Shown here one piece after another: positions 45,050 through 46,017 of a stretch of 64,000 nucleotides of DNA. Positions within the stretch are counted from its first letter, which is position 1. Every line of letters begins with the position of its first letter. Source of the stretch: Cladophialophora immunda (taxonomy: Eukaryota > Ascomycota > Eurotiomycetes > Chaetothyriales > Herpotrichiellaceae). Under the pieces are notes generated by a model that did no database searches, had not been told where the DNA came from, and saw only the letters and a list, made by a program, of their open reading frames with translations. The DNA lies in NCBI RefSeq assembly GCF_000835495.1, contig NW_015622544.1, forward strand, positions 205,704 through 269,703, in the 5' to 3' direction. The position numbers and the translations under genes are program-made.

Positions 45050-45841
45050 GGTCGATTGCGAGTTGCTTGATCTCAGGTGGTTTGTGGATTGGCAGTAGTC
45101 GATCGGTCGGCAAATGTTGGAAGACGGGGAAGGATTATTAGTGTTCTATATAATTACCTCGTGATGTTTGTAGATGGAAGGCTGCCACGTTAGCGGGTGA
45201 CGTCAAATGCCCAACATGACCCCAGGAAGAAAAGTGGAGAATATCTCAGAGCGGCTACTTCGATGCCGGTTTCGTACAACGGCGATCAGGGATAATCGAT
45301 ATTGTTACGAGGCAGCAAGTCCGTCTGACAAAAAGAGGGTTCCCTTAATAGTGGTTGCGCTGGCGTGTTTGCTCCGAGATACTAGTCATTTGCAAAGATA
45401 TGTTCTCTGTTATTATACACCGCGATACCCCTATGCTCATTTGACGATATCAGCTAGTTGATCTGGCGGCTACCTAGTCGTTATCTCGAGAATGCGTCAG
45501 ACCGTGCCATTTTTACTTCCAGATGCTTGCCGGTTGCACTGCACGGAGCATAGTGTATACTACGGAGTACACCACTGTCACAGCCTGCCTACCTCGCCAA
45601 TGAACGGACTTTGCATTAACACTTGGGTTTTACATGGGGTCGGCGACATGGAGGTTCAAATGGTCAATCTTCCCTCCGTACACAACGATGTACGAAAATG
45701 TGCCTCTGGAGAAATAAAGACCAGTAAAGTGGTGGGGTTGGCTTCTGCCAAGCGGTAAGCGAGTCCAATCATTGCAAGAATTTGCGTCCCCGAGAGCGTT
45801 CAAGATATATTTTATAACTGCCAAATCTTGACATAATTCCA
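45050..45841. other. Intergenic with one TACGGAGTAC motif
   Basis: No gene supported. TACGGAGTAC occurs at 45561-45570. Confidence 0.45.
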
Positions 45842-45980
45842 GCGTTGGTGGTGTAATGGTAACATTGGAGCCTTCCATACGCATAGGCGAGCTCTAGCCC
45901 CGGGTTCGATGTAAGTTCAATCTCTCTGTAGGCAGTTGAAAAGAAGTTAATCTAACCGCACTATCAGTCCCGGCTGACGC
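45842..45980 (+). tRNA. tRNA-Gly (TCC) with a canonical 12-nt intron and a second 57-bp insert in the T-loop
   Basis: Acceptor 5' strand GCGTTGG (45842-45848), D stem GTGT/ACAT, D loop AATGGTA, anticodon stem GGAGC/GCTCT, anticodon TCC at 45874-45876. A normal tRNA intron TACGCATAGGCG (45878-45889) follows position 37. Variable loop AGCC, T stem CCGGG (45900-45904), T loop TTCGAT. Then 45911-45967 is an insert, and the gene resumes with T, CCCGG (45969-45973) and CTGACGC (45974-45980), which pairs with the 5' acceptor strand (two wobble pairs). Without the insert the T stem is perfect and the mature tRNA is 70 nt before CCA. The insert splits the B box (GGTTCGAT^TCC). A Pol III terminator, TTTTTT at 45994-45999, follows. 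It is either a functional doubly interrupted tRNA gene or one inactivated by an insertion. Confidence 0.88.
45911..45967 (+). other. Spliceosomal-intron-like insert within the tRNA gene
   Basis: 57 bp beginning GTAAGT, with CTAAC at 45952-45956 as a textbook fungal branch site whose A is 12 nt from the end, and finishing TATCAG. Length, donor, branch and acceptor all match the protein-gene introns of this window. tRNA introns normally lie at 37/38 and are removed by the tRNA splicing endonuclease; this position and these signals are unlike that class. Confidence 0.8.
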
Positions 45981-45993
45981 AGGCAAATCGTTG

Positions 45994-46017
45994 TTTTTTC
46001 CTTTGGTTTTTTTTTTT
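45994..46017 (+). terminator. RNA polymerase III T-run terminators after the tRNA
   Basis: TTTTTT at 45994-45999, 13 bp after the end of the acceptor stem, and a second run of 11 T at 46007-46017. Position and length fit Pol III termination. Confidence 0.7.

Follow-up and report, generated by a model that had tools for sequence, protein, structure and literature searches.

The tRNA-Gly(TCC) gene in a 64,000-nt stretch of the Cladophialophora immunda genome (the window hereafter; it lies on contig C4, and the genome has 42.2 Mb) carries a 57-nt insert in its T loop, which we read, with a probability of about 0.8, as a U2-type spliceosomal intron in a working gene and as one of many such introns in the tRNA genes of this genome. 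This reading was drawn from the DNA sequence. A protein encoded in the window shares 98% identity, across 91% of its length, with one from C. immunda. The interruption of tRNA genes is real and is larger than the single Gly case: the anatomy of the genes, the fit of their junctions, the recurrence in 14 genes and one natural intron-less copy are all seen in the DNA. The features of the Gly locus are as follows.

45806..45817, plus strand: TATA-like element TATATTTTATAA, putative function, starting 36 nt upstream of the gene
45842..45981, plus strand: unspliced tRNA-Gly(TCC) gene, 140 bp (ARAGORN and junction analysis)
45842..45877, plus strand: exon 1, with the acceptor 5' strand, the D arm, the anticodon stem 5' strand and the loop to position 37; anticodon TCC
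45878..45889, plus strand: ordinary 37/38 intron, 12 nt
45890..45910, plus strand: exon 2, with position 38, the anticodon stem 3' strand, the variable loop, the T stem 5' strand and the T loop to position 59
45911..45967, plus strand: T-loop spliceosomal-type intron at 59/60, 57 nt, GTAAGT...CAG
45952..45956, plus strand: CTAAC branch-point-like site, A at 45955
45968..45981, plus strand: exon 3, with T loop position 60, the T stem 3' strand, the acceptor 3' strand and the discriminator A
45994..45999, plus strand: T6 run, likely Pol III terminator
46007-46017, plus strand: T11 run downstream of the T6 run

The preliminary description had proposed a 12-nt intron at 37/38 together with a 57-nt T-loop insert at 59/60 bearing GTAAGT, CTAAC and CAG. 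The junction analysis bore out both introns, and the three signals are present; the gene end was moved from 45980 to 45981 to take in the discriminator A. Removal of the insert restored the full Gly(TCC) cloverleaf, with 7/7 acceptor pairs and 5/5 T-stem pairs; restored T and acceptor stems had also been proposed. Among the deletions of at least 15 nt that we tried in the 3' part of the gene, five brought back a TTCRA loop together with full pairing of the T stem (5/5) and the acceptor (7/7). Each of the five was 57 nt long, and their positions differed by no more than 2 nt. One of them is the GT..AG register, which gives the T loop TTCGATT. The A box and the T6 run are present in the gene, and the B box is complete only after splicing.

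ARAGORN showed no tRNA in the whole window or in the unspliced Gly gene alone, and returned Gly(tcc) with a 12-nt intron when 45911-45967 was removed. The Rfam scan of the window gave no tRNA and matched nothing. Folding of the unspliced Gly RNA predicted no cloverleaf, and its stability was not above that of shuffles (z = 0.39). Four copies of the 9-mer TACGGAGTA are present in the window, always on the plus strand (3381, 45561, 46099, and 54519), and two of them flank the tRNA-Gly gene within about 300 bp.

We found 19 GT-AG inserts in 14 tRNA genes on seven contigs (sites by hand numbering):

Gly(TCC): insert at 59/60
Glu(TTC): insert at 43/44; Rfam match
Glu(CTC): insert at 15/16
Arg(TCT): insert at 46/47; Rfam match
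His(GTG): inserts at 52/53 and 61/62, which enclose a 9-nt exon; gene spans 223 nt
Asp(GTC), locus L046: insert at 24/25, 53 nt
Pro(AGG): inserts at 3/4 and 32/33
Pro(TGG): insert at 53/54
Lys(TTT): inserts at 26/27 and 58/59
Ala(AGC): insert at 7/8
Leu(CAG): inserts at 9/10 and 29/30
Ser(GCT): inserts at 24/25 and in the variable arm
Ser(GCT)-like, decayed (L127, C6:438775-439070): insert at 57/58
Ile(TAT): insert at 3/4; Rfam match, noticed only through its unpaired acceptor stem

The inserts occupy 17 sites ranging from 3/4 to 61/62, with 3/4 and 24/25 used twice, and none of the 19 lies at 37/38. The first 12 interrupted genes were 137-240 bp long. Only 3 nt of tRNA sequence precede the first intron in Pro(AGG) and Ile(TAT).

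The Rfam tRNA family gave 23 matches on the genome, from 63 scored of 935 candidates, and 22 of these were read (all except C5:1266434-1266520). GT-AG inserts were present in three of the 22, Glu(TTC), Arg(TCT), and Ile(TAT). Ten more interrupted genes besides Gly came from D-arm patterns, short stretches read and a splice-aware scan; His(GTG), for example, was reached with the D-arm pattern TGGTGTAATGGTNANCA, which is one base off the Gly D loop. Together with the 21 tRNA genes read without an insert (19 Rfam matches, Asp in L070 and Leu in L120), this sample is neither random nor complete, so 14/35 is not a genome frequency. A T-loop/donor pattern had 83 matches, and the only tRNA among the 10 loci read (nine plus the window's own) was the window gene. 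A B-box pattern was useless for counting, with 342 genome matches versus 341 in the reversed control.

The two interrupted Glu genes, Glu(CTC) at C7:3602206-3602410 and Glu(TTC) at C7:3603014-3603150, are neighbours on one strand, with less than 1 kb between them, and their insert sites differ. The interrupted Pro(TGG) gene lies in L068 (C5, about 274.6 kb, minus strand), about 100 nt from an unrelated pattern match, and this chance discovery hints at more hidden tRNA genes in the genome. We also noted a tRNA-like T arm at C2:6127154-6127171. Another locus (L061, C3:2775576-2775587, minus strand) starts exactly as both tRNA-Asp genes do (TCCTCGATGGTCTAGTGGTCA) and then diverges; it is perhaps a tRNA-Asp fragment.

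All 19 inserts start with GT and end with AG, a feature by which the junctions were partly picked. Every insert contained a YTRAY motif whose A stands 11-15 nt before the insert's end, and in 15/19 the motif was CTAAC. The inserts were 49-63 nt long with a mean of 54.1 nt; the protein-gene introns compared were only two (L037 and L039), at about 50 and 61 nt by eye. A similar intron rule fitted 5 of the 1,918,110 window segments of 49-63 nt on both strands, and the Gly intron also fits it. In contrast, GT..AG was found in none of the 12 introns at 37/38 of the first 12 interrupted genes. Introns at 37/38 are common and vary greatly in length (L009, L010, L012, L041, and others): that of Arg(TCT) has 8 nt, that of His(GTG) 44 nt and, by ARAGORN, that of Ser(TGA) more than 50 nt. 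The sequence TTTT, a possible Pol III stop, occurred inside two of the 19 introns, those of Ile and Pro(TGG). The first 16 introns were free of it (shuffle P = 0.027), a signal that became weaker when these two genes joined the set.

The tests of junctions, similarity and ARAGORN calls covered 12 genes with 16 introns, and the tallies for all 14 genes and 19 introns were made separately. tRNA-Asp(GTC) has two genes with the same exon sequence. L046 carries a 53-nt GT..AG insert, the edges of which have no room to slide, and L070 lacks it; with this intron-less copy for comparison, GT..AG follows without being assumed. Sliding of the junction was impossible in 5/16 cases and possible by 1-3 nt in the other 11, so GT..AG there is one of several registers. 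Arg(TCT) without its insert has the variable loop and T-arm start AGGTTGTGGGTTCGAGTCCCA, as in the uninterrupted Arg(CCT). When one intron was removed from Pro(AGG) the acceptor failed to pair; the missing GCG was found ahead of a donor whose intron has CTGAC and CAG, and joining it gave 7/7. The acceptor of Ile(TAT) was likewise paired once the upstream bases before the donor were joined. After removal of the inserts, the acceptor was 7/7 in 13 of the 14 genes (Ala(AGC) had 6/7) and the T stem was 5/5 in 13 of the 14 (the decayed Ser had 4/5). This Ser(GCT)-like gene, L127, has a shortened D stem and one T-stem mismatch; it is probably a decaying copy, so some interrupted genes can die.

ARAGORN gave the right isotype and anticodon for one of the 12 unspliced genes (Glu(CTC), with the intron misplaced) and for 9/12 after removal of the GT-AG inserts alone. 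Arg and Leu were still misread after removal, and the decayed Ser was not found. The splice-aware scan, which used single and paired splicings on the window and 132 partly overlapping loci, tested 320 candidate splicings, of which 21 gave a tRNA call spanning the junction; these calls come from 11 distinct genes. The isotype was wrong for Arg and Ile, and Pro(AGG) and Ser(GCT) were also miscalled in some of their single splicings. The scan missed the decayed Ser as well as Leu(CAG) and Glu(CTC), the loci of the last two having been covered in pieces. The reversed-sequence control, with single splicings only, gave no tRNA across a junction in 313 candidates, and random deletions gave tRNA calls in 9/5914, several of them at the edges of ordinary tRNAs.

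A run of at least five T was present no more than 27 nt downstream in all 13 genes with a readable 3' flank (Ile and Pro(TGG) by eye; Glu(CTC) is outside this count). The B box is broken by the split T loop or T stem in Gly and Pro(TGG), and in Gly this interruption could weaken transcription. In Lys a strict B box is absent even after splicing, and in the unspliced His gene it is rebuilt by bases at the intron ends. TATA elements lie 34-36 nt upstream of Gly, Pro(TGG) and Lys. They were found at 6/12 interrupted genes, plus Pro(TGG), compared with 5/21 uninterrupted genes, an excess that is suggestive only, with less than 40 nt of upstream sequence for 4 of the 33 genes compared.

We searched for a second Gly(TCC) gene in several ways. 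The genome DNA search with the 139-bp Gly gene as query matched the gene itself only. A T-arm search of the genome allowing up to three mismatches found no arm within one mismatch of the spliced Gly(TCC) T arm; 30 matches had two or three mismatches, and a divergent second gene may have been missed. No second Gly(TCC) was seen among 33 A-box matches, most of them read over the first 60 nt only. The 35 tRNA-like genes read included a single gene each for Gly(TCC), His(GTG), Glu(TTC) and Glu(CTC). A BLAST-like search with the joined Gly exons (query one base off at position 38) returned the Gly gene only; this search missed Glu(TTC), which shares a 17-mer with the query, and therefore says little on copy number.

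The strongest competitor, though an unlikely one, is that these are dead or dying tRNA copies, broken by the introns while intact genes elsewhere supply the tRNAs. The decayed and intron-bearing L127 fits this explanation, as do the second, intron-less Asp(GTC) gene and the incompleteness of the tRNA census. However, acceptors and T stems pair fully after removal in 13 of the 14 genes each, the splice signals are intact in all 19 inserts, and the 35 genes read held no second copy for four of the isoacceptors. The T-arm search likewise spoke against an intact second Gly(TCC) as the source. The preliminary description had left two branches, a precursor in need of both splicing machineries and a single dead or introner-like insertion. 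The sequence evidence supports the former. A single recent insertion did not hold up, with 14 genes carrying such introns. An introner-like element was also considered and rejected: the 16 inserts compared included no near-identical copies and were no more alike than shuffles (best pair score 24 versus 24-27 in the shuffled controls), and the whole-gene search found only the gene itself. These 16 inserts are not mutual copies, and so not a fresh burst of one element.

It is very improbable that the inserts are ectopic bulge-helix-bulge introns of the archaeal and algal type, cut out by the tRNA endonuclease. Such introns do exist in tRNA genes (PMC3978253, in excerpt), and the earlier statement that known tRNA introns sit at 37/38 was too strong in view of those in Cyanidioschyzon and the Guillardia nucleomorph described there. 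Under a simple rule, however, the Gly junction had 2/4 central pairs and a four-pair central helix in the expected position was possible at 1/16 junctions only (Arg, mostly G-U), which speaks against removal by the endonuclease, as does the presence of GT..AG and a branch site in every insert against the lack of GT..AG in the 12 introns at 37/38 examined. Minimal group I introns, like the putative 63-75-nt introns from rRNA genes of Phialophora, a relative of this fungus (PMC3160393, in excerpt), come close in size but scarcely deserve belief, given the spliceosomal 5', branch and 3' signals of all the tRNA inserts. Equally negligible is an origin in chance matches or in an assembly artefact. 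The set GTAAGT..CTAAC..AG had one match in the window versus a shuffle mean of 0.35, and 22/100 shuffles had at least one match; the motif set alone is not rare, so the weight lies on the cloverleaf fit and on the 18 further inserts of the same kind in the genome. Against chance stand the calls across junctions (21/320, compared with 0/313 reversed and 9/5914 random deletions), and against an artefact the spread of the inserts over seven contigs and the unlikeness of the 16 compared.

The spliceosomal reading of the inserts is well supported by their sequence. The whole set is best read as the outcome of repeated insertion of ordinary spliceosomal introns into Pol III tRNA genes, whose precursors would need the spliceosome before the tRNA endonuclease. 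We infer Pol III transcription, spliceosomal removal, the order of the steps and use in translation. Pol III would make a pre-tRNA ending in the downstream T run, perhaps aided by the upstream TATA element, the B box being interrupted. The spliceosome would then take the GT-AG introns out in the nucleus while the precursor is still unfolded, and the cloverleaf would form only after their removal. End-processing and modification would follow, and finally the tRNA endonuclease and ligase would remove the 37/38 intron. The folded body of the tRNA is the reference from which the tRNA endonuclease measures, and the unspliced Gly RNA is not predicted to form a cloverleaf; the spliceosome should therefore act first and the 37/38 intron leave last.

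No report of spliceosomal introns in tRNA genes was met in the open literature searched, which leaves out most subscription papers and all bioRxiv preprints. The nearest precedents are the introns of U6 RNA and rDNA, known here from excerpts of the papers. The Schizosaccharomyces pombe U6 snRNA gene has an mRNA-type intron (Tani and Ohshima 1989, 1991, cited in PMC8917221), which is likewise a spliceosomal intron in a short Pol III transcript and is removed by the spliceosome (PMC8917221). That case concerns one snRNA gene with no second splicing machinery, whereas at least 14 tRNA genes with up to two such introns each are concerned here. The rDNA of ascomycetes and lichen fungi has spliceosomal introns (Bhattacharya et al. 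2000, cited in PMC8527467), and yeast removes rDNA spliceosomal introns from the Pol I transcript (PMC8527467). Here too a fungal gene for a structural RNA holds ectopic spliceosomal introns, but the RNA is rRNA made by Pol I and not tRNA probably made by Pol III.

In Cyanidioschyzon, the Guillardia nucleomorph and archaea, ectopic tRNA introns also lie outside 37/38, including in the D and T loops (PMC3978253, PMC8450103). In contrast to the inserts found here, their removal is put down to the tRNA endonuclease cutting at bulge-helix-bulge motifs, although many Guillardia introns have no defined motif, and the excerpts of these papers mention no GT-AG introns (PMC3978253, PMC8450103). Fungal introner-like elements resemble the inserts here in the gain of many spliceosomal introns (PMC4457414, in excerpt). 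For another C. immunda strain, 52 tRNAs, 28 of them spliced, were listed with standard tools, and the excerpt names no such introns (PMC5595782). Strand-specific RNA-seq exists for C. immunda CBS 110551 (PMC5595782). In the excerpt on Exophiala dermatitidis, the Trp-tRNA was not found and the intron coordinates of the His-tRNA span 96 nt, ambiguously those of the intron or of the gene, compared with 223 nt for the His gene here (PMC4463862).

Introners are mutual copies, which the 16 inserts compared here are not. The tRNA endonuclease has been regarded as the enzyme for nuclear tRNA introns, and Pol II transcripts as the main place of spliceosomal introns. Our results suggest, from sequence, that the mRNA splicing machinery is needed to make tRNAs in C. 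immunda. In this fungus, and perhaps in its relatives, it is likely that a large part of the nuclear tRNA set is made only by way of the spliceosome, that spliceosomal introns have come to occupy almost any position as they spread through Pol III tRNA genes, that two unrelated splicing machineries act on one precursor in a fixed order, and that translation capacity is tied to the spliceosome. If this is true, the spliceosome is able to process short Pol III transcripts in large number, from genes of 137-240 bp (12 measured), and copes with a 9-nt internal exon, as in His, and with 3 nt before the first intron, as in Pro(AGG) and Ile(TAT). Real tRNA genes would be missed by standard tRNA finders in such genomes. 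The inserts would also be a record of intron gain free of reading-frame constraint, and tRNA supply would depend on the spliceosome.
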